Below, piece by piece: positions 13,876 to 28,320 of a stretch of DNA of 64,000 bases; position 1 is the first letter of the stretch, and the number at the start of each line of letters is the position of its first letter. The stretch comes from Geodermatophilus ruber. GTDB taxonomy: Bacteria > Actinomycetota > Actinomycetes > Mycobacteriales > Geodermatophilaceae. The DNA lies in NCBI RefSeq assembly GCF_900114385.1, contig NZ_FOSW01000005.1, positions 182,980-246,979 of the forward strand. Direction: 5' to 3'. The notes beneath the pieces were generated by a model that made no database searches, was not told the DNA's origin, and was given only the letters and a program-made list of their open reading frames with translations. The translations under genes and the position numbers were made by a program.

Positions 13876-14685
13876 TCAGCTCAGCTCGCCCGTGAGCAGG
13901 CGTCCGGCTCCGCTGATGGCCGGCCGGTGGCCTAGTGCTCGGAGCACCTCGAAGGTGGTCGCCGTCGCAGCGGTGACCACCGGCAGCCCCAGTTCGTCCT
14001 CGACCCGCTGGACGGCAGCGAGGGACGGCATCTGCACGCAGGCCGACAGGACGATCGCCTCGGCGCCCTCGCGCTCCAGGCCTCGGGCGATGTCCGGCAG
14101 GTTCTCTGGGTCCAGCCGGCCGACGGCGAGGTTGTCCGGCACCTCGAGGGCGACCGCGTCGAGGACCTCGATGCCCTCACCCTCGATGTACTCCCGGACC
14201 ATCTGGGTCAGCGGCGCCATGTACGGGGTCACGATGGCCACCCGGTGGGCGCCGATGGTCTGCAGGGTGCGCACCAGGGCGCCGGCGCTGCTGACCACGT
14301 CGGCGGGGTGCCCGTTGTCTCGGGCGGCTTCCCCGATGACCTGCTCGGACTCCTTGTGCGCGCCGGGGCCCTGTGCCATGACGGCGACCAGGCAGGCGTA
14401 GGCGATGACGTCCACATCGGCGTCGGATACGGCGGTCGCGCACTCGGCCGCCTTTCCCACCATCGCGAGCAGTTCCTCCCTGTTGACCTGCTTCATCGCC
14501 GCGCGGGCCGAGTGGAACGTGTAGCGGTGCCCGGTGGCCTCCGACTGCCGGCGAAACAGCTCCGGCAGCTCGGTCTCCATCGTGGTGTTCGAGCTCGGCA
14601 CGATGAGGCCGACCCGGGAGGAGCCGGGAGCCTGTGGAGCCGGGCTGTTCTCGCAGGCTGCCGCGGTTGTGGGATCGATGGTCAT
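13876..14685 (-). CDS. maiA: Maleate cis-trans isomerase
   Basis: The 269-residue Asp/Glu racemase-fold protein has the maleate isomerase signature GLIVPSSNTTMETE and the two catalytic cysteines, Cys98 in YACLVAVM and Cys216 in LSACVQMPS. It converts maleate to fumarate, the last step of the maleamate pathway (NicE in nicotinate degradation). Its ATG overlaps the stop of the molybdenum hydroxylase large subunit (TGATG), so translation is coupled; a GGAGGAG site is also present. Arylmalonate decarboxylase is a related fold, but the signature and context favour maleate. Confidence 0.9.
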   Translation of the reverse strand: MTIDPTTAAACENSPAPQAPGSSRVGLIVPSSNTTMETELPELFRRQSEATGHRYTFHSARAAMKQVNREELLAMVGKAAECATAVSDADVDVIAYACLVAVMAQGPGAHKESEQVIGEAARDNGHPADVVSSAGALVRTLQTIGAHRVAIVTPYMAPLTQMVREYIEGEGIEVLDAVALEVPDNLAVGRLDPENLPDIARGLEREGAEAIVLSACVQMPSLAAVQRVEDELGLPVVTAATATTFEVLRALGHRPAISGAGRLLTGELS

Positions 14686-17135
14686 CAGTAGCCAACTCCT
14701 CCGTCGGGAAGGTTTTCTCGGGTGGGGGTGAGCTCCTCGTCGAAGCCCTGGCCGTCGGAGCGTCCGGAGAGCGCGCGCCACACGGCCTCCGGGGTGATGG
14801 GGAGCGTGTCCAGCTCGACGCCGAAGTCGGCGAGCGCGTCGCAGATCGCGTTGGCCACGGCTGCACCCGGCGGAATGGTGCCGACCTCGCCGACGCCGCG
14901 GATGCCGAACGGCGTCACGGGGGAGGGGACCTCCGTGTGCAGCAGCTCGATCGGCGGCAGGTCGGCCGCCGTCGGTGGGAAGTAGTCGACCATCGACCCG
15001 TTGACCAGCTGCCCGGTCTCCGCGTCGTAGCGCAGCTCCTCGGTGAGCGCCGCGCCGAAGCCCTGCGCCAGCGCGCCGCGGACCTGGCCGTCGACCACCG
15101 TCGGGTTCACCACCGTCCCGGCGTCGTGCACCATGACGAAGCGCTCGATCTCGAACTCCCCCGTCCCCGGGTCGACGGCGACCAGCGCCGCCGCGGTGCC
15201 GAAGGAGTACGCAGCGTCGGCGGGCTCGAAGTGGCTGGTCGCCTCCAGGCCGGGCTCTTCCCCCGGCGGGATGCCCTGCCCCGTGATCGCCGTGCCGAAG
15301 ACCTCGGCCAGCGTCACCGACACGGAGGCGTCGTCCCGACGGCGGACCACCGGCCCGGCGATCTCCAGCAGCTCCGGGTCGCTCTCCAGCCGCCAGGCGG
15401 CCAGGCGCAGCGTCTTGGCCGCCAGCTCCTCGGCCGCCTCCTTGAGCGCCCCGGACGCCGCGATCATCGTCCGCGACGCGAAGGCGCCGGTGTTCAGCGG
15501 CGAGGCCGAGGTGTCACCGGCGTGCACCTTGACGGCGTCGTACCCGATGCCGAACACCTCGCTGACCACCTGGGCGAACGCCGTCTCGGCGCTCTGCCCC
15601 ATGGTGGAGACACCGGTCCAGACGTCGATGCCCCCGGACCGGTTGGCCCGCAGGGTCACGCTCTCGTGCGCGCCGAACTGCGAGCCGCGGCGGGCGAGGA
15701 AGCGGGCGCTGGCGTAGCCGGTGCGCTCGACGAAGGAGGAGAAGCCGATGCCGCGGATCCGGCCGTCGGCCCGCGGGGTGCGGGGGGTACCCCGGTGGGC
15801 GTCCCAGCCGATCGCCTCGGCGGCCATCCGCAGGCACTTCTCGTAGTCGCCGCTGTCGTAGACCGCGCCGGTGGGGTTCTTCCACGGCAGCTCGGCGGGC
15901 GTGAGCATGTTCTTGGCGCGCAGCTCCACCGGGTCGAGGTCCAGCCGGCGGGCGAGGGTGTCCATCAACCGCTCGTAGGCGAAGTTGACCTCCGGCTGGC
16001 CGTACCCCCGGTAGGCGCCGATCGGCGTCTTGTTGGTGAGCGTGACCCGCCGCTCGGCGTACCCGTCGGTGACCCGGTACGGGCCGTTGAGCACGACGCT
16101 GGACAGCTGCGCCGAGCCGAACGGGGAGTTCCAGCCGCCGATGTCGGTGGCGTAGACGTCGGTCATGGCCAGGATCCGGCCCTCGGCGTCGGCGGCGATC
16201 CGGTAGTCGTGCACCGACTCGCGGGCGTGCGTGGAGTTCCGGAAGTGCTCGGCGCGGTCCTCGGTCCACTTCACCGGCCGGCGCAGCGCCATGGCGTGCA
16301 GGCAGGCCAGCACGTCCTCGGGGAAGACGCCGAGCTTGAGGCCGAAACCACCGCCGACGTCGGAGGCGACCGCGCGGATGTCGCTCTCCTGCAGCCGCAG
16401 CGACTCGGCCAGCTGCTTGCGGATCAGGTGCGGCACCTGGGTGGAGGTGTGCACCGTCAGCTCCCGGGCGCCGGGGCGCCACTCGGCGACGACGGCACGG
16501 GTCTCCATCGGCAGCGCGGTCACCCGGTTGATCCGGAAACGGCCCTCGACGACGACGTCGGCCTCGCGGATCCGCGCCTCGGGGTCGCCGCTGCCGTCGG
16601 AGTTGGCCGCCAGCAGATTGGAGTCCAGGACGTCGGGGTGCAGGACGGGCGCCCCCGGCTCGAGCGCGGCGAGCACGTCGACGACGTGCGGCAGCGGCTC
16701 GTACTCGACGTCGACCAGCTCGAGGGCGTCCTCGGCGACGTGCCGGCTGGTCGCCACGACGCTGACCACCGGCTGGCCCTCGTGGGTGGCCACGTCCTGG
16801 GCCAGCGCGTAGTACGGCAGCCGCGGCGCGCCGGGCACCGGGCGCAGCACGCCCAGGGGCTCGGTGGCGGCGCGGACGTCGGCGCCGGTCAGGACGTGCT
16901 TGACGCCCTCGAGCTGCTCGGCGGCGGAGGTGTCGATGCGCACGATCCGGGCGTGCGGGTAGGGGCAGCGGCCGACGGCCATGTGCAGCACGTGCGCCGG
17001 CTCGACGTCGTCGGTGAACCGGCCGTCGCCGCGCAGCAGCCGGTCGTCCTCCTTGCGCAGCTGCCAGGAGCCGATGACGCCGCGCGTGACGGGGCCGGAG
17101 CGGTCGGCCGCGGCCGGGCGCTCGACGGTGGTCAT
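14685..17135 (-). CDS. Molybdenum hydroxylase large subunit (xanthine dehydrogenase family)
   Basis: The 816-residue subunit binds the molybdopterin cofactor: the GGGFG block (DVGGGFGLK), GAYRGYGQPE, and near the C-terminus GVGEVGT with the catalytic Glu of the family. It lacks the AYRCSFR loop of form I CO dehydrogenase, so it is not a true CoxL. With the [2Fe-2S] subunit (17132-17662) and FAD subunit (21009-21872) it forms a three-subunit hydroxylase that would hydroxylate the pyridine ring next to nitrogen. Its ATG overlaps the small-subunit stop. The substrate (3-hydroxypyridine or a similar ring) is inferred from neighbours. Confidence 0.9.
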   Translation of the reverse strand: MTTVERPAAADRSGPVTRGVIGSWQLRKEDDRLLRGDGRFTDDVEPAHVLHMAVGRCPYPHARIVRIDTSAAEQLEGVKHVLTGADVRAATEPLGVLRPVPGAPRLPYYALAQDVATHEGQPVVSVVATSRHVAEDALELVDVEYEPLPHVVDVLAALEPGAPVLHPDVLDSNLLAANSDGSGDPEARIREADVVVEGRFRINRVTALPMETRAVVAEWRPGARELTVHTSTQVPHLIRKQLAESLRLQESDIRAVASDVGGGFGLKLGVFPEDVLACLHAMALRRPVKWTEDRAEHFRNSTHARESVHDYRIAADAEGRILAMTDVYATDIGGWNSPFGSAQLSSVVLNGPYRVTDGYAERRVTLTNKTPIGAYRGYGQPEVNFAYERLMDTLARRLDLDPVELRAKNMLTPAELPWKNPTGAVYDSGDYEKCLRMAAEAIGWDAHRGTPRTPRADGRIRGIGFSSFVERTGYASARFLARRGSQFGAHESVTLRANRSGGIDVWTGVSTMGQSAETAFAQVVSEVFGIGYDAVKVHAGDTSASPLNTGAFASRTMIAASGALKEAAEELAAKTLRLAAWRLESDPELLEIAGPVVRRRDDASVSVTLAEVFGTAITGQGIPPGEEPGLEATSHFEPADAAYSFGTAAALVAVDPGTGEFEIERFVMVHDAGTVVNPTVVDGQVRGALAQGFGAALTEELRYDAETGQLVNGSMVDYFPPTAADLPPIELLHTEVPSPVTPFGIRGVGEVGTIPPGAAVANAICDALADFGVELDTLPITPEAVWRALSGRSDGQGFDEELTPTRENLPDGGVGY

Positions 17136-17662
17136 CGCGCACCTCCCGGCAGGGACGCGGCGGCCTCGTCCGCCGGTCGCTCCACGGACTCGGCGAAGTA
17201 CCGCTCGATCGCCGTCACGATGTTCTCGTATCCGGTGCAGCGGCACAGCACACCGGCGATCTCCTCGCGGATCTCCTCGCGGGAGGGGTGCCCGCCCTGG
17301 TGGGCCAGCGCGGTCGCGGTCATGAGCATTCCGGGGGTGCAGAAGCCGCACTGCAGCGCGTGCTGCTCCTTGAAGCACTGCTGCAGCGGGTTGAGCTCGT
17401 CGTCGACGGCGAGGGACTCGACGGTTTGCACGTTCCGGCCGTCGAGCTGGCAGGCCAGCATCAGGCAGGACTTCACTGCCTCGCCGTCCACCACGACCGT
17501 GCACATGCCGCAGGAGCCCTGCTCGCAGCCCACGTGCGTGCCGGTCAGGCCCAGCCGCTGGCGGAGGAAGTCGGCGACGTGCAGCCGCGCCGGCACGGTG
17601 GCGGTCACCACCTCGCCGTTGACGGTCGTGGTCAGCTCGACGAGCGGCTCGGGGGCGGTCAT
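17132..17662 (-). CDS. Molybdenum hydroxylase [2Fe-2S] small subunit
   Basis: The 176-residue protein has the N-terminal plant-type ferredoxin cluster (Cys46, 51, 54, 66 in CEQGSCGMC ... C) and the C-terminal four-helix cluster (Cys105, 108, 140, 142 in CGFC and CRC). It carries electrons from the molybdenum centre to FAD. It overlaps the large subunit by four bases (ATGA). A 123-base gap separates it from nicX upstream; no promoter is obvious there. Confidence 0.95.
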   Translation of the reverse strand: MTAPEPLVELTTTVNGEVVTATVPARLHVADFLRQRLGLTGTHVGCEQGSCGMCTVVVDGEAVKSCLMLACQLDGRNVQTVESLAVDDELNPLQQCFKEQHALQCGFCTPGMLMTATALAHQGGHPSREEIREEIAGVLCRCTGYENIVTAIERYFAESVERPADEAAASLPGGAR

Positions 17663-17785: not shown

Positions 17786-18817
17786 TCACCGGCGGTTGAC
17801 CGGGCGCATCTCCGGGACGGTCAGCTCGCCGCGGTCGACGATGAGCTCGTCGTCGAGGTAGAGGCTGTTGCCGCGCATCGGGATGTCGAAGTGGCAGGGG
17901 GTGTCGTTCGGGCCACCGAGCTCGTTGTTGGGCCCGATGGAGAACATCACGTTGCCGTAGAAGGAGCGCAGCTCCATGCCCATCCCGCCGGGGAACTGGG
18001 TGAGCCCGTGCCAGTGGGCGCGCTCGTCGAGGCCCCAGCCGACGTGGCTCATGCCGTAGCCGCGGGGGTCGTCGAAGGACTCGATGTAGGACTTCAGCAG
18101 GTCGGCGTCCAGGCCGCCGCGGATGTCGCGGATGAAGCCGGCCTCGATGGTGAGGGTGACCGGGGTCTGCACGTAGGTGTTGAAGGGCAGCAGCACGTCC
18201 CCGGGGGAGAGCACGATCTGCCCGTCCACGCCGTCGTCGGCGCCGCCGGTGAACACGAACGCGGCCGGCCAGTGGTCCCAGCGGCCGGGGGTGTCGGTGT
18301 AGCCGTACTCGCTCATCGTCGGGTAGACGCCCAGCTTGTAGGTGACGTCGGTGCCGCCGGGGCTGGTGATCCGCATGACCTTGGCCTTGGCCAGCAGCTC
18401 GTAAGCGACCTCGACCCGCTCCCGGATCTCCCGGGTGGGCATCAACCGGGCGAGCAGCGGCGCCGGCTCGACGCAGGTCAGGATCCGGGTGCCGGCGTCC
18501 TGGATGGCGAACTGCTCCTTGCTGAACAGCAGGAAGGTCAGGTCGACGACCATGTCGGCGGCCTTCAGGGCCTCGACGGCCAGCGGGTTGTCGGCCAGGC
18601 CGGACTCGCCGACCGCCCAGGCGCCCTTGGCGCTGGAGGGCGAGGGCAGCCGCATGTGGTAGGTCGCCGCGCCCAGCTGCTGGGCGGCCCACAGGAAGGC
18701 GTCGGCGTACTCGGGCCGCTCGCCGCCCCGGGAGAGGACGGCGACGGTCTCGCCCTCGTGCACCCCGGACAGCCGCAGCTGCTCCAGGCAGATGGAGTTG
18801 AACAGGTTCTGGTCCAT
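17786..18817 (-). CDS. nicX: 2,5-dihydroxypyridine 5,6-dioxygenase-like (NicX family)
   Basis: The 343-residue protein matches the NicX family in length and in conserved blocks: TEYGY-type turn (SEYGYTDTPGRWDHWP), SHVGWGL with the presumed iron ligand His258, and CHFDIP with His309 and Asp311, which correspond to the HxD ligand pair of Pseudomonas NicX. The family also resembles M29 aminopeptidases and is often misannotated as such. The reaction is iron-dependent ring opening of 2,5-dihydroxypyridine to N-formylmaleamate. It lies 25 bases after nicD in the operon, whose other products fit the next steps. Confidence 0.88.
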   Translation of the reverse strand: MDQNLFNSICLEQLRLSGVHEGETVAVLSRGGERPEYADAFLWAAQQLGAATYHMRLPSPSSAKGAWAVGESGLADNPLAVEALKAADMVVDLTFLLFSKEQFAIQDAGTRILTCVEPAPLLARLMPTREIRERVEVAYELLAKAKVMRITSPGGTDVTYKLGVYPTMSEYGYTDTPGRWDHWPAAFVFTGGADDGVDGQIVLSPGDVLLPFNTYVQTPVTLTIEAGFIRDIRGGLDADLLKSYIESFDDPRGYGMSHVGWGLDERAHWHGLTQFPGGMGMELRSFYGNVMFSIGPNNELGGPNDTPCHFDIPMRGNSLYLDDELIVDRGELTVPEMRPVNRR

Positions 18818-18842: not shown

Positions 18843-19673
18843 TCAGTGCTGCGGGGCGTGCGCGAGCAGGTGCGGACGCACGACGTCGAGGAAGCCGGGC
18901 AGGTTGTCCCACGGCACCATGTGGCCGGCCCGAGGGACGGTGTGGATCTCGATGCCGGGCTGGGCGCGCCGCAGGTCGGCCACGGCCGCCAGCGGCACCA
19001 CGGGGCTGTCCCCGCCGCGGACCAGCACGACCGGCTGGGTGAGCCGCGCCCAGTAGTCGAAGAAGTCCTCGGTCTCGAAGCCCTCGTGGGTCTCCAGCAC
19101 GGCCGTCTCGTCGCAGGAGGCCAGCACCTCCGCCCGCAGCCGCAGCTCGCGCTCGGGCCACAGCGGGTAGAAGCGGCGGACGGCGTGGGCGTCGGTGCCC
19201 GCCTGCGCCTCGTGCAGCTGCTGCAGGAACGCCTCGCGCGAGGTCGGGTACGGGCCGCGGCCCGGGCCGGACACCGGCGGGTCGACCAGCAGCAGCAGGC
19301 CGTGGTCGTCGGGGGCGTGCAGCACCGCGTAGGCCGCGGCGATCCGCGCGCCCATCGAGTGGCCGAGCACGACCGGGCGGCGCAGGTCCAGCGCGCCGAC
19401 CAGGCCGGCGACGTCCGCGGCGTAGTCGACTAGCCGGTACCCGCCCGAGGGCGCCCGGTCGCTCTCCCCGCGGCCGCGCACGTCGGGCACGGTCACCCGG
19501 TAGCCCAGGTCGGCCAGCAGCACGGCGAGGAAGTCCGCAGTCGCCGCCGGGCTGGTGATGCCGGGCAGCACCAGCAGGTCCGGGGCACCGGGCTCGCCGT
19601 AGCGCAGAACGTGGTGGCGCAGCCCGTTCGCTTCCACGAATGCGCTCGCGCCGCGGAGTTCGACGGCGGTCAC
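18843..19673 (-). CDS. nicD: Alpha/beta hydrolase, probable N-formylmaleamate deformylase
   Basis: The 276-residue alpha/beta hydrolase has nucleophile Ser106 in GHSMGA, Asp131 in LVDPPVSGPG at the spacing of the NicD acid, and His251 in AGHMVPWD. Asp131 lies 25 residues after the Ser, close to NicD of Pseudomonas putida. It would cleave N-formylmaleamate to maleamate and formate. GTG 19673 overlaps the upstream HD-protein stop (GTGA). Sequence alone would allow other hydrolase functions; position beside nicX decides the call. Confidence 0.82.
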   Translation of the reverse strand: MTAVELRGASAFVEANGLRHHVLRYGEPGAPDLLVLPGITSPAATADFLAVLLADLGYRVTVPDVRGRGESDRAPSGGYRLVDYAADVAGLVGALDLRRPVVLGHSMGARIAAAYAVLHAPDDHGLLLLVDPPVSGPGRGPYPTSREAFLQQLHEAQAGTDAHAVRRFYPLWPERELRLRAEVLASCDETAVLETHEGFETEDFFDYWARLTQPVVLVRGGDSPVVPLAAVADLRRAQPGIEIHTVPRAGHMVPWDNLPGFLDVVRPHLLAHAPQH

Positions 19674-20278
19674 CGGTCGCCCCCGTCCTCGGCCGGGAGC
19701 TGGTCCAGCGCCCACTCGAGCCACTGGCCGGCCAGCTCCCGGGCGGCCGGCACCCGGATCCGCTCGGCCATGTAGACGAGCTTCTGCGCCCCCTTGTCCC
19801 GGGAGCAGGCGCCGCTCGCGACCCAGTCCCGGGTGAGCCCGGCGAGGGTCTCGAGGAACGACAGCGAGTCCCCGGCCTGCACGTCGTCGGCGCCGCGCAG
19901 GCCGCCCACCTCGTGCAGGCCGACCAGCCGGCGCACCTCCGCGAGGCTCACCTCGGCCGCCGCCGGACCGATGCTTCCCAGCCACACCCCCACGGACTCC
20001 GCGGAGCGCAACGAGTGCGGGTACAGGTAGAACGGGTCGTCCCACTCCGTCGCCCGGTGGTCCAACCGCGGGCCGCCCGGGAACATCCGCTCGATGTCGT
20101 GGGTCATCGCCGCCAGGCGCATCTCCACGGTCGCGTCCGGGTTGAGGTGGACCAGCCAGTCGCGGGCCCGCATCAGGTGCTCGGCCTGGTCGTAGGGCTT
20201 GATCCACTCCGCGGCGAGGACCTCGATCTCGGTCTCCAGCGAGACCTCCGGAGCCGTCCAGGGCAGTGCGGCGGTCAT
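19670..20278 (-). CDS. HD-domain protein of unknown function in the catabolic operon
   Basis: The 202-residue protein has a likely HD metal site: His34, His60-Asp61 (MTHDIERMF) and His88. It overlaps both neighbours by four bases, so it is translated as an integral part of the operon between the CoxG-like and deformylase genes. HD proteins are usually phosphohydrolases. If the pathway uses a phosphorylated intermediate, as the PEP-synthase-like pair suggests, this could be the matching phosphatase; that is a hypothesis, not something the sequence proves. Confidence 0.75.
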   Translation of the reverse strand: MTAALPWTAPEVSLETEIEVLAAEWIKPYDQAEHLMRARDWLVHLNPDATVEMRLAAMTHDIERMFPGGPRLDHRATEWDDPFYLYPHSLRSAESVGVWLGSIGPAAAEVSLAEVRRLVGLHEVGGLRGADDVQAGDSLSFLETLAGLTRDWVASGACSRDKGAQKLVYMAERIRVPAARELAGQWLEWALDQLPAEDGGDR

Positions 20279-20922
20279 CGGCGGGACCGCCGCCGGCCGC
20301 GCCGCAGGGCGACGATGCTCAGCACCACCGACACCGCGCTGAGCGCCGCGGCCACCTTCGACCACGGGTCCCCCGCTGGCAGGTCGCTGACCGGCGGAAG
20401 CGCGGAGCCCGTGGTGCGCACGGCGGCGGGAGCCGCCGTGGGAGCCACCGCGGCGGCGGCCGCGGCCGGCGTGGAACCGCCGCCGAGGGCCTGCTCCAGG
20501 TTGCGGGCGAACTGCCCGGTCACCTTGCCGGCCTGCTTGGCCACGACCTTCTGCCCGACGCTGCCGAGCGCGCCGGCGAGGGCGACATCGCCCTCGACCA
20601 TGACGACCGTGCGGTCGCCGGCCGGCTCCAGCTGGACGGTGACGCCGGCGCGCACGTTGCCCATCGCGCCGCGGACGCTCTTGCCGGTGGCGGTGAAGCC
20701 GATCAGCTTCTCGGGCACCCGCTCGACGATGGTCACCTTCGCGGCGAAGGTCGCCGTCATCGGGCCGACGCTCTGGGTCAGCCGGACGTCGATGTCGTCG
20801 GGGGTGACGACGGTGAGCTGCTCGACACCGGGCACGCACTCGGCGACCCGCTCCGGCTGCTCGAAGAACGTCCACACCGATGCCACCGGCTGGGCGACCT
20901 CGAACTCCTCGCGCAGCTTCAT
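20275..20922 (-). CDS. coxG: CoxG-like SRPBCC protein with C-terminal membrane anchor
   Basis: Residues 1-145 form an SRPBCC/CoxG domain (start MKLREEFEVAQPVASVW, then CVPGVEQL). An Ala/Pro-rich linker and one C-terminal hydrophobic helix (about 187-205) with a basic GRRRSRR tail follow, as in CoxG of CO dehydrogenase loci, which recruits the molybdenum enzyme to the membrane or delivers substrate and electrons. A strong GGGAGGAG site precedes ATG 20922. Its place among the hydroxylase subunits suggests it tethers this hydroxylase to the respiratory chain. Confidence 0.87.
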   Translation of the reverse strand: MKLREEFEVAQPVASVWTFFEQPERVAECVPGVEQLTVVTPDDIDVRLTQSVGPMTATFAAKVTIVERVPEKLIGFTATGKSVRGAMGNVRAGVTVQLEPAGDRTVVMVEGDVALAGALGSVGQKVVAKQAGKVTGQFARNLEQALGGGSTPAAAAAAVAPTAAPAAVRTTGSALPPVSDLPAGDPWSKVAAALSAVSVVLSIVALRRGRRRSRR

Positions 20923-21008: not shown

Positions 21009-21872
21009 TCAGTGCGCGCCGGCGGCGCGCAGCTCGGTCAGCACCCGGCGGACGTAGACGGGCACCAGGTGTCGGCGGTACTCGGCGGTGGCGCGCACGT
21101 CCGTGGGCGGGTCGATCACCGCGAGCGCCGCCTGTGCGGCGGCATCGAGGTCGGTGTCGGTCAGCTCCGTGCCGGCCAGCGCGTCCCCGGCCGCCGCGGC
21201 GAGCACCGGGGTGTCGGCCACCCCACCCAGGGCGATCCGCACGTCCCGCCACCGACCCTCGTCGTCCCGGTCACCGGTGGCGACGACGCTGAGGACGGCG
21301 AAGTCGTTGTGCTTGCGGCACATCTCGCCGAACGCCACGTGCTGCGGGTGGCGCGGGAACTCCACGGCGGTGACCAGCTCGTCGAGCTCGAGCGCCGTGG
21401 CGTAGGAGCCGGTGTAGAACTCCGCCAGCGGGATCCGCCGGGTGCCGCGGGGCCCTACGGCGGTCACGACCGCGCCGAGCACCAGGCAGGCCAGCGGCAT
21501 CTCGCCGGTCGGGTCGCCCTGCACCAGCGCGCCGCCGACGGTGCCCCGGTTGCGCACCTGCCGGTCGCCGATGTGCCGGACGACGCGGGCCAGCAGCGGC
21601 AGCCGCTGCGCCACCACCTCGGACCGCTCGACCGTGGTGTAGCGGGTGAGCGCGCCCAGCACGGTGCGGTCGCCGTCGACGGTGATGTCGTCGAGCTCGT
21701 CGACGTCGTTGATGTCGACCAGCGCCGCCGGCCGCCACAGCCGCATGTTGAGCATCGGGACGAGGCTCTGCCCGCCGGCGAGCACGCGGGCGGCGCCCGC
21801 GTGCTCGCCGAGGTGGGCGACTGCCTCGGCGACCGACGTCGGCCGGTGGTAGGCGAAGGCTGCGGGCTTCAC
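21009..21872 (-). CDS. Molybdenum hydroxylase FAD-binding medium subunit
   Basis: The 287-residue protein has the CO dehydrogenase-type flavoprotein fold: AGGQSLVPMLNMRL (pyrophosphate loop) and GTVGGALVQGDPTGEMP, plus a C-terminal CODH_FAD_C domain. It passes electrons from the [2Fe-2S] subunit to the acceptor. GTG 21872 overlaps the stop of the PPDK-like gene (GTGA). It is separated from its small and large partners by four genes, an unusual order for a three-subunit hydroxylase. Confidence 0.93.
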   Translation of the reverse strand: MKPAAFAYHRPTSVAEAVAHLGEHAGAARVLAGGQSLVPMLNMRLWRPAALVDINDVDELDDITVDGDRTVLGALTRYTTVERSEVVAQRLPLLARVVRHIGDRQVRNRGTVGGALVQGDPTGEMPLACLVLGAVVTAVGPRGTRRIPLAEFYTGSYATALELDELVTAVEFPRHPQHVAFGEMCRKHNDFAVLSVVATGDRDDEGRWRDVRIALGGVADTPVLAAAAGDALAGTELTDTDLDAAAQAALAVIDPPTDVRATAEYRRHLVPVYVRRVLTELRAAGAH

Positions 21873-22969
21873 GAGGCGCGGTTCCCGCCCTGCACCACGC
21901 CGACGCCGGCGAAGCGGGCCAGCACGTGGCTGACCGCCGACTTCTTCTCGGTGACCAGCTGCTCGGCCTGCCGATGGCTCCACACCGTCTCCGGGCGGAC
22001 CTGCAGCACGTGCACGTCACCGGTGGCGCTGACGGCCCACTCGATGTCCTGCGGGGCGCCGCGGTGCCGCTCGATCCGCTTGGCCAGCTCGGCCAGGGCG
22101 TGGATCTGCACGTCATCCAGGCAGGGGGCGGCGCAGAGCTCGGCCGCCACCGGGACCAGGCCGACCGCGGCGATCGCCGGGTCGAAGCTGTACTGCTGCT
22201 CCTGGTGGGCGACGTCGCGCTTGAGGACCTCGAAGGTCACCTTGTCGACGACGTAGCGGCTCGGGGTGACCCCGCCGCTGACGACGCCCTCGCCCAGGCC
22301 CCAGCAGCCCTCGATGACCACTTTGGAACGGTCGCCGGTCACCGGGTCGAGGGTGAACATGACCCCGGCCGACCGGGCCTCCACCATCTGCTGCACGCCG
22401 ACGCAGATGCCGTGGTCAACGGCGACCGCCGCGGGGTCAGCGTCCGGCCGGTAGGTGAGCACCGCGGCGCCGAACATGCCGGCCCAGCAGCTGCGGACGT
22501 GCTTCAGCACGTCCTCGGCCCCGCGGATCCACAGGAAGGTGTCGTACTGCCCGGCGAAGCTCGCGCCGGCCAGGTCCTCGGACTCGCCGCTGGAGCGCAC
22601 CGCCACCGGGAGGCCCTCCCGCCCGGTGCGCCGCTCGAGCTCCGCGTAGGCGCTACGGACGGCGGCCTCCAGGTCGGCCGGCAGCGGCGCGGCCTCGATG
22701 GCCGCGGTGAACTCCGCGCTGATCTCCTGCACCCGGGCGAGGTCGGCGCCCACCGCCTCGGCGCGCACCTGCCGGGCCCGCTCGGCCAGGCCGGCGGACT
22801 CCAGGAAGTACCGGTAGGCGGTGGTGGTGATGCCGAACCCGCCGGGGACGGCGAACCCGCCCGCGGTCATCTCCGCGAGGCTGGCGAACTTCCCGCCGAG
22901 CAGCTTGCTGCCGACGGCCTCCGGCTCGTCGATCCAGAGGACGAACGGGGATGCGGTGGCGGTGGTCAT
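21869..22969 (-). CDS. Stand-alone PEP synthase/PPDK ATP-binding domain protein
   Basis: The 366-residue protein is only the ATP-grasp half of PEP synthase: GGKFASLAEMTAGGFAVPGG, then AVRSSGESEDLAGASFAGQY, then ARSAGVMFTLDPVTGD, and DIEWA ... LQVRPETVW at the end. It lacks the phosphohistidine and PEP-binding domains of the full 800-residue enzyme. The next gene upstream supplies the phosphohistidine domain. The pair resembles PpsB and PpsA of phenylphosphate synthase, which phosphorylates phenol, so this half probably transfers phosphate from ATP to the partner's His. Overlap by four bases with both neighbours implies matched synthesis. Confidence 0.88.
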   Translation of the reverse strand: MTTATASPFVLWIDEPEAVGSKLLGGKFASLAEMTAGGFAVPGGFGITTTAYRYFLESAGLAERARQVRAEAVGADLARVQEISAEFTAAIEAAPLPADLEAAVRSAYAELERRTGREGLPVAVRSSGESEDLAGASFAGQYDTFLWIRGAEDVLKHVRSCWAGMFGAAVLTYRPDADPAAVAVDHGICVGVQQMVEARSAGVMFTLDPVTGDRSKVVIEGCWGLGEGVVSGGVTPSRYVVDKVTFEVLKRDVAHQEQQYSFDPAIAAVGLVPVAAELCAAPCLDDVQIHALAELAKRIERHRGAPQDIEWAVSATGDVHVLQVRPETVWSHRQAEQLVTEKKSAVSHVLARFAGVGVVQGGNRAS

Positions 22970-24858
22970 GCGGACACGTCCTCGAGAACACGGACGACGC
23001 CGGTGTTGCCGTCGACCTCGATGAGCTGACCAGTGCGGATGGAGGTGGTCGCGAAGCCCGTTCCGACGACCGCCGGCAGGCCGTACTCGCGGCAGACGAT
23101 GGCGGTGTGCGCCATGATCCCGCCGACGTCGGAGACCGCGGCCGACAGCCGCGAGAAGACCGGCGCCCAGCTCGGGGCGGTGATCCGGCAGACCAGGATG
23201 TCGCCGTCCTCCACCTCGTGCAGCTGCTCGGGGTCGATGATCACCCGGGCGCGGCCGGTGGCCTTGCCGGCGGAGGCCGCGACGCCGCGCAGCTCGCCGC
23301 CGTCCTGGCCATCCACCCCGAGCCACTCCTGCACCGACTCCTGGGTGATGCCCCAGAGCATCACGGTGAGCGGCTCGGTGATGAACTCCGGCGGGATGCC
23401 GAGGGCCGGCAGCGGCGGGTTGGCCTTGAGCACCTCGCGGATCCGCTTGCGCCGCTCGACCTCCGGGCGCCAGTAGGTGACGCCGCGGGCCTCGGTGCCG
23501 GTGGCCCAGCCGATGTTCAGGTCGTACAGCGCCGAGTAGATCTCGTTGCGGTGCAGGTAGAAGACGTCCTCGCGGTCGTCGAGGAAGTCGTGGGCGACGA
23601 AGACGTCACCGAGCTCGCGCACCTTGGACCAGAACAGCGAGTGGTGCCAGTGCTCGACGTAGAAGTTGTGGTTCTCGACGAACGGGAACACCTGGCGGGC
23701 CAGCTCGACCAGCCCGTCGAAGGACTCCCGGTCGGCGTCGGTCGGCAGGTAGCTGCGGTACTCCGCCGTGACCCGGACCCGCTCGGCCAGGATCTCGTCG
23801 AGCGGGCGGCGGATGTCCTCCCCGGCGAGCAGGGCCTGGACGTAGCCGCGCATGGCGCTGAAGGGCAGCCGCAGGTCGTCGATCCACGCGCGGTCGCTGT
23901 GGGTGTAGCCGGCGCCGGTGGAGAACCAGAACCACGGGTCCTTGGCCTTCTCGAACGCGGAGATCCACTGCGAGCCGTTCGGGTGCGCGGCGATCGCGTT
24001 CAGCGTCGCGTCGGGGTCGTCGTTGCCGAGCACGATGTCGCTGAGCTCGAGCTCGACCGCGAGCTTGGCCAGCCCGCGCACCTCGTCGTCCGGGCGGAAC
24101 AGCAGGATGTCGATGCCCGACACCATGCTGGCGATCGTCTGGTCGCTGATCCCGGGGAACGCGGCCTGGCAGAACTCGCGGAAGGTGAGGTAGGCGCCGT
24201 ACCCGAGGTTGAGCATCTCGAAGTGGTAGGAGCCCATCTCGAACAGGTTCTCGATGAGCGCGCCGTAGCTGGTGAGCAGGTCGTAGGTGGAGTAGACGCC
24301 GCGGTGCTCGAAGACGCTGCTCTCCGGCTCCATGCCGGGCAGCGGCGCGAACCGGATCGCCTTGAGCCGCTCGATGCAGTCGGTGGCCTTGGCCACCCAC
24401 TGCTCGTAGATCTCGTCCCAGTTCTCGTAGTAGTGCCCGGCGCGGACGGCGAACTCCTGCGCCCGCTGGGCCACCTCGTCGGGGTCGGTGACAGCGTTCG
24501 GGCTGATGTAGAGGTAGCCGTTGATGATCCGGTGGTCGATCCCGCCCGCCGGCGGCACCGGCCAGACCCGGGTCGACATCTGGCTGGCCGCCACCCACCA
24601 GTTCTCGGTCATGATCGTGTCGAACGGGTACAGCGGCTCGGGGTTGTGCATCCCGTCGAAGAACCAGAACTTGCCGTCCTCGAACTCGCGGCGCTCGTCG
24701 CTGAGCAGGGCGTAGTACGGGTACATGCTCTGCCAGCCCTCGGCGCCGGCCGGGGTCTGGACGGCGAACGGGCTGGCGAACCGCTTGCCGGGGACCGCTT
24801 GGGCGGCCCCCTCGGAGCTGGGCACGCCGTCGGTCGAGTTCGAACTGGTGAGCGTCAT
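22966..24858 (-). CDS. PEP-utilising mobile (phosphohistidine) domain protein
   Basis: The 630-residue protein ends in a PEP-utilisers mobile domain with the phospho-acceptor His584 in GGIMAHTAIVCREYG. The first 480 residues are rich in Trp, Tyr and Phe and have no Walker or ATP-grasp motif; they resemble the large N-terminal part of PpsA-like proteins and could hold the acceptor-substrate site. It is separated by 79 bases from the amidase gene upstream and overlaps the ATP-grasp gene downstream. Likely function: transfer of phosphate from His584 to a hydroxylated ring. Confidence 0.85.
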   Translation of the reverse strand: MTLTSSNSTDGVPSSEGAAQAVPGKRFASPFAVQTPAGAEGWQSMYPYYALLSDERREFEDGKFWFFDGMHNPEPLYPFDTIMTENWWVAASQMSTRVWPVPPAGGIDHRIINGYLYISPNAVTDPDEVAQRAQEFAVRAGHYYENWDEIYEQWVAKATDCIERLKAIRFAPLPGMEPESSVFEHRGVYSTYDLLTSYGALIENLFEMGSYHFEMLNLGYGAYLTFREFCQAAFPGISDQTIASMVSGIDILLFRPDDEVRGLAKLAVELELSDIVLGNDDPDATLNAIAAHPNGSQWISAFEKAKDPWFWFSTGAGYTHSDRAWIDDLRLPFSAMRGYVQALLAGEDIRRPLDEILAERVRVTAEYRSYLPTDADRESFDGLVELARQVFPFVENHNFYVEHWHHSLFWSKVRELGDVFVAHDFLDDREDVFYLHRNEIYSALYDLNIGWATGTEARGVTYWRPEVERRKRIREVLKANPPLPALGIPPEFITEPLTVMLWGITQESVQEWLGVDGQDGGELRGVAASAGKATGRARVIIDPEQLHEVEDGDILVCRITAPSWAPVFSRLSAAVSDVGGIMAHTAIVCREYGLPAVVGTGFATTSIRTGQLIEVDGNTGVVRVLEDVSA

Positions 24859-24937: not shown

Positions 24938-25570
24938 TCACGCGAGAGCCGCGACGTAGGTCAGGACGTCGCCGAGATCGACCACGTCGCCGTACTTCTC
25001 GTTGATGTCGAACAGGCTCGCGTCGTGCGGGCCCTGCGCGCGGTCGGCCACGCAGTCGCGCGGCACGAGGGTCGGGTAGCCGTGCTGGACGGCGTCCACG
25101 ACGGTCGCGCGCACGCACCCGCTGGTCGTGGCTCCGGTGACGATCACCGTGTCCACCCGGCGCGAAGCCAGGTACGACGCGAGGGCCGTGCCGAAGAACG
25201 CCGACGCGCCGGTCTTCACCACCAGGTGCTCGTCCGGCCGCGGGGACAGTCGCTCGTCGACCTCGACCAGCCGGCTGCCGGCCTCGAGCGCGGCCATCCC
25301 GGTCGCCTTCTTCAGCCACGCCAGCGAGCCGACCTGGCCCTGGTCGTAGGCGATGGTGGTGAAGACGACCGGCAGGTCCTGCGCGCGGGCTGCGTCGAGC
25401 AGCCGCGCGGTGGCCAGGACAGCGCCGGACATGTCCGACCCGGTGGGATACTCCGGATCGGTGAAGCCGTAGGTGAAGTCGACGACGACCACCGCGGGTC
25501 GGCTGCCGCGCTCGATCGGGCGGCCGAAGCCCGCCCGGTCGTAGACCTGGGCGGTCGTGGGTGCACCCAT
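24938..25570 (-). CDS. nicF: Isochorismatase-family hydrolase, probable maleamate amidase
   Basis: The 210-residue cysteine hydrolase has the triad Asp31 (VVDFTYGF), Lys119 (VVKTGASAFFGT) and Cys152 (GATTSGCVRAT), and the length of NicF-type maleamate amidohydrolases. It would convert maleamate to maleate and ammonia. It is the first gene of the minus-strand operon; GGAG precedes ATG 25570, and a 16-bp palindrome lies 77 bases upstream. Related N-carbamoylsarcosine amidases are possible by fold, but the pathway context supports maleamate. Confidence 0.86.
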   Translation of the reverse strand: MGAPTTAQVYDRAGFGRPIERGSRPAVVVVDFTYGFTDPEYPTGSDMSGAVLATARLLDAARAQDLPVVFTTIAYDQGQVGSLAWLKKATGMAALEAGSRLVEVDERLSPRPDEHLVVKTGASAFFGTALASYLASRRVDTVIVTGATTSGCVRATVVDAVQHGYPTLVPRDCVADRAQGPHDASLFDINEKYGDVVDLGDVLTYVAALA

Positions 25571-26051: not shown

Positions 26052-27488
26052 ATGGAACAGTTCCCGGAACAGGCATCGACCAACTGGTTGATGTCGACGT
26101 TCATCTTCACGGTCGGCGCCGTCGCCGTGCTGCTCGTGGTCGTCGGCCTCGTCATGGTCGACATGGGCCTCGTCCGCCGCCGCAACGTCCTCGACACCAC
26201 GGTGCAGAAGATCGGCGCCGCGATGGTGGGCGGGCTGGGCACGCTGCTGATCGGCTACCCGATCTGGATGTGGCAGTTCAACTCGGCCTTCGGCGCGCCG
26301 CAGCCGCTCTGGCAGGCGGTGAAGGACTGGTGGATCGGCGGCACGTTCACCACCACCGCCTCGCGCTACATCGACCCGACGGTCCTGCCCGAGGCCGACG
26401 TCCTGCAGATCTTCCTCGTCTTCTTCGTGACCTTCACGATGGCGACCATGGCGCTGGTGCACACCGGCGTCGTCGAGCGGATCAAGCCGGTTCCGCTCTA
26501 CGCGATGTCCTTCGTGATGGGCGCGATCATCTCGCCGCTGGTGGGCTACCTGTGCTGGGGCTCGCTGTCTCCCCTGACGCTGCGGGGCACCCACGACTTC
26601 GACGGCATCTTCCCGCTGTACATCACCGCGGGCACGTTCGCGCTGGTGCTGGCCTGGCGGGTCGGCCCCCGGCTCGGCGTCTTCCGGCCGCACCCCAGCG
26701 GCATCAAGCCCGCCTCGCACAACGTCGCGTTCGTCGGCATCGGCGTGCTGCTGATCCTGTTCGCGCTGCCGTTCATCACCATCGGCAGCGGGTTCATCTT
26801 CGCCGACGTCGGCTTCTTCGGGATCTCGTTCACCGAGAGCGGCATCGGCCTGGTCATCATCAACCTGTTCTCGGGCATCCTCGGCGGTGCCGTGATGGGG
26901 CTGATCGTCGCCTACCGGCGGCGGGAGGCCTCGTGGGCGCTCATGGGCCCGATCGCCGGCGTGGTGATGGGCGGGACGCTCTTCGACATCAGCACCTCGT
27001 GGGTCTGCCTCCTGGTGGGTGCTCTCGGCCCGCTGGTCTCCCTGGGCACCGCGGCCCTGCTGCGCAAGGCCCGGATCGACGACCCCAAGGTCGTCCCGCT
27101 GGCCCTCGGTCCCGGCGTCGTCGGCGCACTCCTGTGCGGCTTCCTCGAGTGGGGGACCCGCACCGGTGGCTACCTCGGCCTGGAGGGTGAGTACGCCCCC
27201 GGGGTCGCCGAGATCACCCCGTGGTGGCAGCTGGCCGGCGTCGTCACCACGATGCTCGTCTCCGGGGTGCCCGCCCTGCTCATGTGCCTGGTCTTCGAGA
27301 AGCTCGGTGGCCTGCGCAGGACCGAGCAGGCCGAGATCATCGGCCTGGACGTCGACCAGTGGGGCGTGACCAACTTCGGCGACGACCTGGAGCCGGGACT
27401 CGGGCCGGTGCTCCCGCCGGAACCAGTCGCCGAGCCCATGGCGTCCGCGACCCGCACGCACTCCACCCCGAGCGGGCTGCCGGACTGA
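26052..27488 (+). CDS. Divergent Amt-family membrane transporter lacking the twin histidines
   Basis: The 478-residue protein has about 11 hydrophobic helices and the Amt layout: NVLDTTVQKIGAAMVGGLGT, then HDFDG, then ASHNVAFVGIGVLLI, and a C-terminal LGGLRRTEQAEIIGLDVDQWG like the cytosolic tail of ammonium transporters. By hand alignment to E. coli AmtB the pore His168 is Tyr190 and His318 is Leu352; the Asp160 equivalent is Asp182. Loss of both histidines argues against ordinary ammonium conduction. AGGAGG precedes ATG 26052. Placed beside a hydroxypyridine pathway, it may import the ring compound or move ammonium by another mode. Confidence 0.78.
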   Translation: MEQFPEQASTNWLMSTFIFTVGAVAVLLVVVGLVMVDMGLVRRRNVLDTTVQKIGAAMVGGLGTLLIGYPIWMWQFNSAFGAPQPLWQAVKDWWIGGTFTTTASRYIDPTVLPEADVLQIFLVFFVTFTMATMALVHTGVVERIKPVPLYAMSFVMGAIISPLVGYLCWGSLSPLTLRGTHDFDGIFPLYITAGTFALVLAWRVGPRLGVFRPHPSGIKPASHNVAFVGIGVLLILFALPFITIGSGFIFADVGFFGISFTESGIGLVIINLFSGILGGAVMGLIVAYRRREASWALMGPIAGVVMGGTLFDISTSWVCLLVGALGPLVSLGTAALLRKARIDDPKVVPLALGPGVVGALLCGFLEWGTRTGGYLGLEGEYAPGVAEITPWWQLAGVVTTMLVSGVPALLMCLVFEKLGGLRRTEQAEIIGLDVDQWGVTNFGDDLEPGLGPVLPPEPVAEPMASATRTHSTPSGLPD

Positions 27489-27630
27489 CCGCTTGACGCT
27501 CCGACCGCAGGGGCGGCCCGGGATCCCCGGGTCGCCCCTGCGGGTCCGGAGGCCTCCGTACCGCGGGGGACCCCGACGGGGACCGGCTGACGCCGTATCC
27601 TTCCCCCACACCTGCGAGGACGGAGTGCAC

Positions 27631-28320
27631 ATGGAGCCCTTGGGGCGGGGCGTCGTGTCCATGTCCCAGCGGACGAGCGAAGGCGTGGCGCGCATCTTGC
27701 GCACGGAGATCTTCTCGGGGCGCCTGAAGCCCGGCGAGCCCATGCCGGAACGTCTGCTGGCCGAGCAGCTCGGGGTGAGCCGCACCCCCGTCCGCGAGGC
27801 GTTGTTCACGCTGCAGAGCGAGGGGCTCGTCGAGCTGACGCCCAACCGCGGCGCGACCGTCCGGATGATCACCGCGCAGGACATCGTGCGCATCTACTCG
27901 CTGCGCGGAGTGCTGGAGTCCTACGCCGCCCGGGAGGCGGCGACCGCCCGGGAGCAGCACCACCTCGATGCACTCGAGGACGCGCACGCCCGGCTGGAGC
28001 GGATCGGCACACGGGGCAACGCCTCGGAGCAGGCGCTCGCCGACCTCGCGTTCCACATGCTGGTCAGCGAGGCGACCGGAAACCCGCTGCTGCAGACCAT
28101 CATGGGTCAGGTCTTGGCGTTCACGGTCAGCTACCGCTCGAACTACGCCTACCCGTCGGACCGTGCGACCACCGTCAACGAGCAGCACCGGGCCATCCTC
28201 GACGCGCTCCGTGACGCGGATGCCGGCCGCGCGGAGGAGCTCATGCGCGAGCACGTCGCCTCCTCCAGCCTCTACGCGCTGGAGCACTTCACGGACGTGG
28301 AGCGCGTCGAGCAAGCTTGA
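27631..28320 (+). CDS. GntR-family (FCD) transcriptional regulator
   Basis: The 229-residue protein has the GntR winged helix (RLLAEQLGVSRTPVREALFTL, read in two parts around residue 45-65) and a C-terminal FCD ligand domain (IVRIYSLRGVLESYAARE, FHMLVSEATGNPLL, EQHRAILDALRDAD) with the usual metal or carboxylate-binding histidines. An in-frame GTG-type start at 27493 is possible, but ATG 27631 has GGAG five bases upstream. It is the only regulator next to the island and probably represses it through the palindromes at 25646 and 25882. Confidence 0.88.
   Translation: MEPLGRGVVSMSQRTSEGVARILRTEIFSGRLKPGEPMPERLLAEQLGVSRTPVREALFTLQSEGLVELTPNRGATVRMITAQDIVRIYSLRGVLESYAAREAATAREQHHLDALEDAHARLERIGTRGNASEQALADLAFHMLVSEATGNPLLQTIMGQVLAFTVSYRSNYAYPSDRATTVNEQHRAILDALRDADAGRAEELMREHVASSSLYALEHFTDVERVEQA

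Follow-up and report, generated by a model that had tools for sequence, protein, structure and literature searches.

A split dikinase and a putative HD-type phosphatase beside a molybdenum hydroxylase in a candidate 3-hydroxypyridine cluster of Geodermatophilus ruber

Why should an operon with a molybdenum hydroxylase also carry two genes that look like the separated halves of a PEP synthase? We examined this question in a stretch of 64,000 nucleotides from Geodermatophilus ruber (contig NZ_FOSW01000005.1), referred to here as the window, in which the two genes, P0001 and P0002, lie among those listed in Table 1.

Table 1. Features of the cluster, with their positions in the window
Feature	Position	Strand	Basis
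P0001, dikinase substrate-binding and swivel subunit, 630 aa, His584	22966-24858	-	PF00391, NF006153, RPH fold match, clade placement
P0002, dikinase ATP-grasp subunit, 366 aa	21869-22969	-	PF01326; matches to HpeI 9GOJ and PEP synthase 9dae
P0003, HD-superfamily hydrolase, predicted aryl phosphatase, 202 aa	19670-20278	-	Invariant HD ligands, AF2 model, fold matches
P0005, molybdenum hydroxylase large subunit	14685-17135	-	PF02738, PF20256, PF01315
2Fe-2S subunit	17132-17662	-	PF01799, PF00111
FAD subunit	21009-21872	-	PF00941, PF03450
Separate SRPBCC/CoxG-like protein	20275-20922	-	PF06240
2,5-Dihydroxypyridine 5,6-dioxygenase, NicX type	17786-18817	-	7cn3, E 4.8e-91
Alpha/beta hydrolase, probable N-formylmaleamate deformylase	18843-19673	-	PF00561; role inferred from pathway
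Isochorismatase-fold hydrolase, probable maleamate amidase	24938-25570	-	PF00857; role inferred
Arylmalonate-decarboxylase-family protein, probable maleate isomerase	13876-14601	-	PF17645; role inferred

Gene content of the cluster

Of the ten junctions between genes, five are overlaps of 4 bases, among them P0001/P0002, P0002/FAD subunit, SRPBCC/P0003 and P0003/alpha/beta hydrolase. An earlier note on this DNA had described a two-gene enzyme in an operon with a molybdenum hydroxylase, and on these points it is borne out. The coordinates, the strand and the split all hold, P0002 containing only the ATP-grasp part and P0001 the swivel domain with His584 behind a 480-residue aromatic-rich region, and the hydroxylase is represented by genes for large, FeS and FAD subunits and a CoxG-like SRPBCC protein. 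The closest solved matches of the large subunit are CoxL (8uem) and quinoline 2-oxidoreductase (1t3q).

Based upon the NicX match, the next intermediate would be 2,5-dihydroxypyridine. Work by Wang (2020, AEM 86:e01313-20) on Ensifer adhaerens HP1 reportedly described a 3hpd cluster with a 3-hydroxypyridine dehydrogenase, HpdA; the abstract is said to state that two PEP/PPDK-like proteins are involved in HpdA activity, and to leave the mechanism open. Two of the features reported for 3hpd occur here, namely a molybdenum hydroxylase with large, FeS and FAD subunits plus a separate SRPBCC protein, and a NicX-type dioxygenase on the 2,5-dihydroxypyridine route. The gene content thus fits a 3hpd cluster for 3-hydroxypyridine, judged on reported features rather than on Ensifer sequences. 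Proteobacterial 3hpd clusters were sought with P0001 among plasmid records only. These gave 276 matches, all below 60% identity and 10 of them at 80% coverage or more; by annotation, no 3hpd cluster was present in six of those 10 regions (H1, H2, H4, H5, H6 and H9).

Family placement of the dikinase pair

Pfam analysis located a PEP-utilizers swivel domain (PF00391, 77 bits) at residues 550-620 of P0001 and PPDK_N (PF01326, 309 bits) as the sole domain of P0002. These are the only Pfam domains detected in the pair, and a barrel for PEP or pyruvate is not among them. Solved PEP synthases align by sequence with P0001 at the swivel domain only. By fold, P0001 matches rifampin phosphotransferase (RPH) over its full length (614 columns, E 2.6e-18), and pyruvate phosphate dikinase (PPDK) over only about 120-130 columns. 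Nearly full-length alignments were obtained with proteins from Pps-, Hpe- and Cre-type loci, a swivel subunit beside annotated ppc genes having 46.4% identity over 95% of P0001, and NF006153 scores P0001 at 800.7 bits (cut-off 578). P0002 is, by sequence alone, equally close to PEP synthase (9dae, E 1.2e-65) and to the crystal structure of HpeI (9GOJ, E 5.1e-65), and a PEP synthase model gives it 299.5 bits. Since the barrel is missing and the PEP synthase match of P0001 is limited to the swivel domain, we reject the identification as PEP synthase; the description in the earlier note, a PEP synthase split in two, was inexact.

A motif T/S-xx-GG-xxx-H with Met, not a regulatory Thr, at -2 from the His is described as distinguishing small-molecule dikinases (PMC12167813). 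In P0001, His584 lies within SDVGGIMAH, with Met at -2, and an RPH-like substrate-binding domain occurs without the PEP barrel. This His is invariant in all 28 aligned sequences. Phe, Trp and Tyr make up 14.3% of residues 25-505 of P0001 vs 4.0% of residues 506-630, and 2.9-9.3% of the other ten cluster proteins. The share is 12.6-14.5% in six relatives, two of them members of the P0001 clade and four encoded at Hpe- or Cre-type loci; aromatic richness is thus a trait of the family. P0001 falls in a clade of 16 rows (support 100/99), separate from the CreHI dikinase. The pair therefore appears, from these alignments, to resemble the two-component aromatic-hydroxyl dikinases PpsAB, CreHI and HpeHI, yet to form a clade of its own. 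From this likeness, phosphorylation of a ring hydroxyl by P0001 and P0002 is a well supported prediction.

P0003 and its genomic associations

P0003 received no Pfam hit, DUF4202 scoring 13.0 bits against a cut-off of 35.1; its relatives L083 and L087 do reach this cut-off, and L087 also passes that for HD. Six HD ligands (H34, H60, D61, H88, H122 and D137) are invariant in 27/27 sequences, and the AlphaFold (AF2) model (pLDDT 94.3) matches HD-type folds. P0003 thus looks like an HD-superfamily hydrolase and is predicted to be an aryl phosphatase. Since nucleotide and alarmone hydrolases can also have an HD fold, the fold does not itself name the substrate. Two Rhodococcus plasmids with cre-like gene order have an HD protein at the place expected for creD; BLASTP detected no homology between it and P0003 (best E 0.024 over 39 residues).

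Among 298 sampled genomes, a P0003-type gene was found in all four carrying this dikinase clade and in none of the 294 others (Fisher p 3e-9, ancestry not corrected for). In a scan of a genome collection with P0003 as query, a swivel subunit was present at 33 of the 37 loci having a P0003 relative, or at 30/34 once the three query-seeding genomes are set aside. Eight of the 37 loci represent a second context, which lacks NicX and has dikinase and molybdenum hydroxylase genes, the hydroxylase being unlike that of the cluster. The P0003 family is not exclusive to the dikinase clade, since its profile matched in 5/393 phylum-sample genomes without this clade, four of which had no molybdenum hydroxylase match. 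Both in this sample and among the 298 genomes, scoring covered the top 8 to 10 first-look candidates of each genome. Around the distant relatives L087-L089, the other cluster genes were absent within the stretch examined. What looks new here is P0003 as an HD-type hydrolase within the operon, tied to this dikinase clade.

Pathway, alternatives and related systems

We propose that the cluster probably degrades 3-hydroxypyridine by the successive action of a kinase, a hydroxylase and a phosphatase. Because a kinase and a probable phosphatase accompany the molybdenum enzyme, we favour the order phosphorylation, hydroxylation and dephosphorylation, as in the cre pathway with its P450. P0002 would bind ATP and charge His584 of P0001, which would hand the beta-phosphate to the ring hydroxyl, giving pyridin-3-yl phosphate. 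The molybdenum hydroxylase would then add a hydroxyl at C6, which adjoins the ring nitrogen and lies para to the ester, and P0003 would cleave off the phosphate. The product, 2,5-dihydroxypyridine, would be taken on to fumarate by the NicX-type dioxygenase, the deformylase, the amidase and the isomerase. Perhaps the phosphate keeps the oxyanion from donating electrons toward C6, provides an anionic handle or traps the substrate. Ring-hydroxyl phosphorylation, as the earlier note had it, gains from the likeness to PpsAB, CreHI and HpeHI and from P0003, a phosphatase-like third gene whose presence strengthens the case for a phosphorylated intermediate; we still infer that the hydroxylase takes the ester as its true substrate.

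To look for a phosphate-binding pocket in the hydroxylase, we set 18 large subunits of the cluster type against nine paralogues of the source genome. All 18 share R471, R478 and R483, positions that carry a basic residue in no more than two of the nine. Within segment 465-495, the presumed pocket, picked post hoc by analogy with the xanthine oxidase structure, Arg/Lys was not significantly enriched (3/14 vs 10/124 other 3hpd-specific positions, Fisher p 0.13).

Phosphorylation of 3-hydroxypyridine by the pair might serve just for trapping or detoxification, with the hydroxylase using the free compound that P0003 releases, or using either form. The pocket result is compatible with this, and for HpeHI trapping was proposed by its discoverers (PMC12167813, PMC9618137) and detoxification was also named (PMC9618137); the next Hpe enzyme, as described there, worked on phosphorylated compounds only. 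Were the phosphate removed before hydroxylation, the trap would be lost, and the same pairing of kinase and HD protein recurs beside the second, unlike molybdenum hydroxylase, so we consider trapping alone unlikely. That the role of the pair and P0003 is to support the hydroxylase itself, through protein phosphorylation or help in cofactor assembly, agrees with the abstract of Wang (2020), which reportedly speaks only of involvement in HpdA activity, and with the overlap of the P0002 and FAD genes. We regard it as quite improbable, as the characterised relatives HpeHI, CreHI and PpsAB are described as phosphorylating small phenolic compounds (PMC12167813). The source genome, moreover, has nine further full-length molybdenum hydroxylase relatives but a single full-length match to P0001 and a single match to P0003.

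NicX acts on the free diol, so that phosphorylation of the product would block the path. This makes it highly improbable that the pair phosphorylates another pathway compound, e.g. 2,5-dihydroxypyridine or a substituted hydroxypyridine, even if two swivel subunits and one ATP-grasp subunit, as found in the stretch examined of three rearranged clusters, may mean several substrates, and several phenols are described as accepted by HpeHI (PMC12167813). A split but true PEP synthase, forming PEP from pyruvate, is scarcely credible in view of the missing barrel and the alignments of P0001, although both domains occur in PEP synthase, and P0002 scores well against it and has PEP synthase 9dae as its best solved match by sequence.

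Returning to phosphorylation before hydroxylation, CreHI and HpeHI already provide cases of phosphate activation in aerobic catabolism; novelty would lie in its use ahead of a molybdenum hydroxylase. The earlier note, which presented the activation as little-known aerobic chemistry, had overlooked these precedents, the HD-type hydrolase and the published 3hpd cluster. In the open-licence literature searched, which omits most subscription papers, we found neither a description of bacterial phosphorylation of 3-hydroxypyridine nor a naming of DUF4202. We lean slightly towards phosphate-ester activation being a general strategy for molybdenum hydroxylases, with a split dikinase, an HD/DUF4202-like phosphatase and a molybdenum hydroxylase forming a movable module that serves at least two hydroxy-aromatic pathways by acting on phosphorylated compounds, one for 3-hydroxypyridine in actinobacteria and another, indicated by the same three parts, in Thermomicrobium, Thermoleophilia and their kin. 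If so, phosphate esters join the known ways of preparing a ring for molybdenum-dependent hydroxylation, and a branch of DUF4202 gains a function. The proposal also offers a testable answer to the presence of two kinase-like genes in 3-hydroxypyridine clusters, and predicts a function for the small orphan gene P0003 and some DUF4202-like relatives.

Among known systems, 3hpd/HpdA of E. adhaerens HP1 reportedly shares the four-part molybdenum hydroxylase with separate SRPBCC, the 2,5-dihydroxypyridine route and the PEP-utilizing and PPDK-like genes, whereas it is not known to have a phosphorylation mechanism. P0003 has the ligands and fold of the HD superfamily but falls below the DUF4202 cut-off. 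RPH has the same three domains, in a single chain that inactivates an antibiotic. Phenylphosphate synthase PpsABC shows the same split and His chemistry (PMC6114531, PMC12167813), but is anaerobic, has a third subunit and is followed by a carboxylase. HpeHI, described as acting on 4-hydroxyacetophenone and acetovanillone, is likewise an aerobic two-component dikinase whose phosphate ester is required by the next enzyme; there, however, carboxylation follows, and the phosphatase HpeD is NagD-like (HAD-type) (PMC12167813, PMC9618137). The 4-cresol pathway of CreHI, CreJEF and the phosphohydrolase CreD is described as combining, aerobically, a two-component dikinase, an oxidation and a phosphohydrolase (PMC12167813, PMC9618137, PMC7764795). 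The HD protein at the creD place of the two Rhodococcus plasmids is not detectably similar in sequence to P0003, and the dikinase of the cre pathway belongs to a separate clade; its substrates are phenols, and its oxidation is carried out by a P450, where the present cluster has a molybdenum hydroxylase.

The two dikinase subunits

The swivel subunit, P0001, is a 630 amino acid protein with its phosphohistidine swivel domain at residues 550-620, and its partner, P0002, is an ATP-grasp domain alone. The earlier note took the pair for a PEP synthase split in two; the ATP-grasp and phosphohistidine functions do reside on separate chains, but a Pfam search found the PEP/pyruvate barrel in neither, and the identification as PEP synthase was not retained.

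Fold comparison of the P0001 AlphaFold model (pLDDT 87.1, pTM 0.87) aligned it with rifampin phosphotransferase (RPH) across 614 columns (E 2.6e-18, probability 1.00). PPDK matched about 120-130 columns, and enzyme I aligned loosely, mostly over about 220-230 columns with an rmsd of about 13-16. Sequence matches of P0001 to solved RPH and to solved PEP synthase cover the swivel domain only; the protein scores 800.7 bits (cut-off 578) against NF006153, an NCBI family named "hypothetical protein". P0002 matches the HpeI crystal structure (9GOJ) with an E-value of 5.1e-65, tied by PEP synthase 9dae at 1.2e-65. His584 of P0001 is invariant in all 28 aligned sequences, and Met occupies the position of the PEP synthase regulatory Thr, a mark of RPH and the phenolic kinases according to PMC12167813.

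A maximum-likelihood tree was built from 39 sequences including the window's, none of them a PEP synthase. Anchors took their names from neighbouring genes: Pps from annotated ppc genes, Cre from genes encoding P450, SDR, ferredoxin, reductase, HD protein and aldehyde dehydrogenase, and Hpe from genes of the biotin carboxylase and HAD types. P0001 falls in a 16-row clade (support 100/99) separate from the Hpe (100/100) and Cre (100/100) clades and the Pps row, in a tree with six open forks and some long rows.

The operon and a proposed phosphorylated route

Gene calling with a codon model placed the pair in a run of eleven genes, with 4-base overlaps at five of the ten junctions (P0001/P0002, P0002/FAD, SRPBCC/P0003, P0003/hydrolase and FeS/large subunit).

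Genes of the window cluster and its neighbours
Feature	Gene of run	Window coordinates	Strand
Whole run	1-11	25570 down to 13876	minus
Isochorismatase-fold hydrolase	1		minus
P0001, substrate-binding and swivel subunit	2	22966-24858	minus
P0002, ATP-grasp subunit	3	21869-22969	minus
FAD protein	4		minus
CoxG-like SRPBCC protein	5		minus
P0003, HD-superfamily hydrolase	6	19670-20278	minus
Alpha/beta hydrolase	7		minus
NicX-type dioxygenase	8		minus
2Fe-2S protein	9		minus
Molybdenum large subunit	10		minus
Arylmalonate-decarboxylase-family protein	11		minus
Ammonium transporter		26091-27488	divergent from cluster
GntR/FCD regulator		27625-28320	divergent from cluster

Since the NicX-type protein matches a solved 2,5-dihydroxypyridine dioxygenase (E 4.8e-91), the molybdenum step should yield 2,5-dihydroxypyridine; judged by enzyme class, a hydroxylase acting beside the ring nitrogen would form it from 3-hydroxypyridine. 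By family and gene order, the other hydrolases and the isomerase fit a maleamate route to fumarate. The transporter and regulator adjoining the cluster may serve the handling of released ammonia and control.

We propose that His584 would be charged from ATP via P0002 and 3-hydroxypyridine then phosphorylated; the molybdenum enzyme would hydroxylate the phosphate ester at C6, and P0003, a predicted aryl phosphatase, would release 2,5-dihydroxypyridine. The chemical reason may be that molybdenum hydroxylases attack electron-poor carbons beside nitrogen: a free oxyanion would donate electrons toward C6, and an ester would weaken this donation and add a charged handle. Trapping, as proposed for HpeHI, could operate alongside activation. 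A cluster-specific basic pocket was sought in the hydroxylase, without a significant result.

Linkage of the HD hydrolase to the dikinase

Among 298 genomes of the order, a P0001 relative of at least 81% identity occurs in four (window included), spread over four families; the same four, and no others in the sample, have a P0003 match (p 3e-9, ignoring shared ancestry). P0003 is missing from nine further genomes whose P0001 relative has 43-50% identity, and from one in which it has 35%. Among 396 genomes of the phylum, all three with a P0001 relative of at least 60% (window included) have P0003, and P0003-type matches turn up in five more genomes that lack such a relative (co-occurrence p 5e-6). 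Four of these five lack a molybdenum hydroxylase match and the fifth has such hydroxylases without a swivel-subunit match, so the wider P0003 family has other jobs.

Scanning a genome collection with the P0003 alignment gave 37 loci, three of them (L060, L065, L066) from genomes behind the query rows. Of the 37, 33 show the swivel subunit, 32 the ATP-grasp subunit, 33 one or more molybdenum hydroxylase genes and 26 the NicX type. Loci without a swivel subunit are L054, whose contig starts within the SRPBCC gene, and L087-L089, with distant P0003 relatives (32-36%). A second context comprises eight of the 37 loci (L073, L078, L079, L081, L083-L086) together with a Thermomicrobium roseum plasmid (L051). 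Here P0003 relatives share 41-59% identity, the swivel subunit 25-31% and the large subunit, where found, 28-34% (it was not found in L081, a short contig); NicX is absent, a cyclase-family gene occurs in all but L073, and an FAH-family gene in all but L073 and L078. At L073 (10001), a P0003 relative of 59% adjoins a swivel subunit of just 27%, so parts seem mixed between modules.

L080 and L082 are rearranged clusters of the first kind. Two swivel/substrate subunit genes each, with a single ATP-grasp gene within the fetched stretch, were seen in the rearranged clusters L159 (5759, 15131), L160 (12666, 16619) and L080 (13398, 16359); perhaps one ATP-grasp partner is common to two substrates.

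Comparison with known phosphorylated pathways

Outside the P0003 groups, 19 further split-dikinase loci were examined (L036-L050, L052, L161-L163). In 14 of the 19, a count made without a control, there is a gene of phosphatase type or, for Pps, a phosphatase-family carboxylase subunit: HAD with Hpe genes (L038-L044, L049), His_Phos_1 and HAD (L036), HAD (L047), HD (L052, L163), a metallophosphoesterase about 6 kb away (haloarchaeal L162) and ppcD (L161), which belongs to a phosphatase family according to PMC6114531. None was seen among the genes examined, a part of the total, in L037, L045, L046, L048 and L050. The pattern fits a shared logic of phosphorylation, transformation and dephosphorylation, with phosphatases of differing origin.

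On a Thermomicrobium roseum plasmid (L050, 9986-18462) the dikinase pair adjoins biotin carboxylase and a three-gene molybdenum hydroxylase, with no P0003 relative within the fetched stretch; the locus combines these kinds of enzyme in yet another way. The haloarchaeal plasmid pair (L162) lies close to genes for a ring-hydroxylating Rieske dioxygenase and the metallophosphoesterase. L036 (7897-15951), possibly another phosphorylated aromatic pathway, combines a pair (swivel subunit 49-51% identity) with a histidine phosphatase, a HAD hydrolase, two extradiol-dioxygenase-like genes and a Rieske protein.

By gene content the window cluster fits the 3hpd type that Wang published in 2020, where a PEP-utilizing protein and a PPDK are said to be involved in the activity of HpdA, the 3-hydroxypyridine dehydrogenase, their function being called open. 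The open-licence literature yielded no report of bacterial phosphorylation of 3-hydroxypyridine, and passages of a study on a 3-hydroxypyridine degrader (PMC6525221) name no kinase. A 2025 paper (PMC12167813) described the subfamily of two-component dikinases. Within reach of our literature search, three points are new: the window pair forms a clade of its own, it has an HD partner, and the module recurs in a second context.

Hpe offers a measured parallel to the proposed order of phosphorylation, transformation and dephosphorylation. In Cre, oxidation comes between the two phosphate steps. According to PMC9618137, the Hpe carboxylase is active only on phosphorylated compounds, and the later ester is strongly preferred by the Hpe phosphatase. 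In its sequence of steps Cre, which uses a P450 (PMC12167813), comes closest; its creD is called a phosphohydrolase in a table of PMC7764795.
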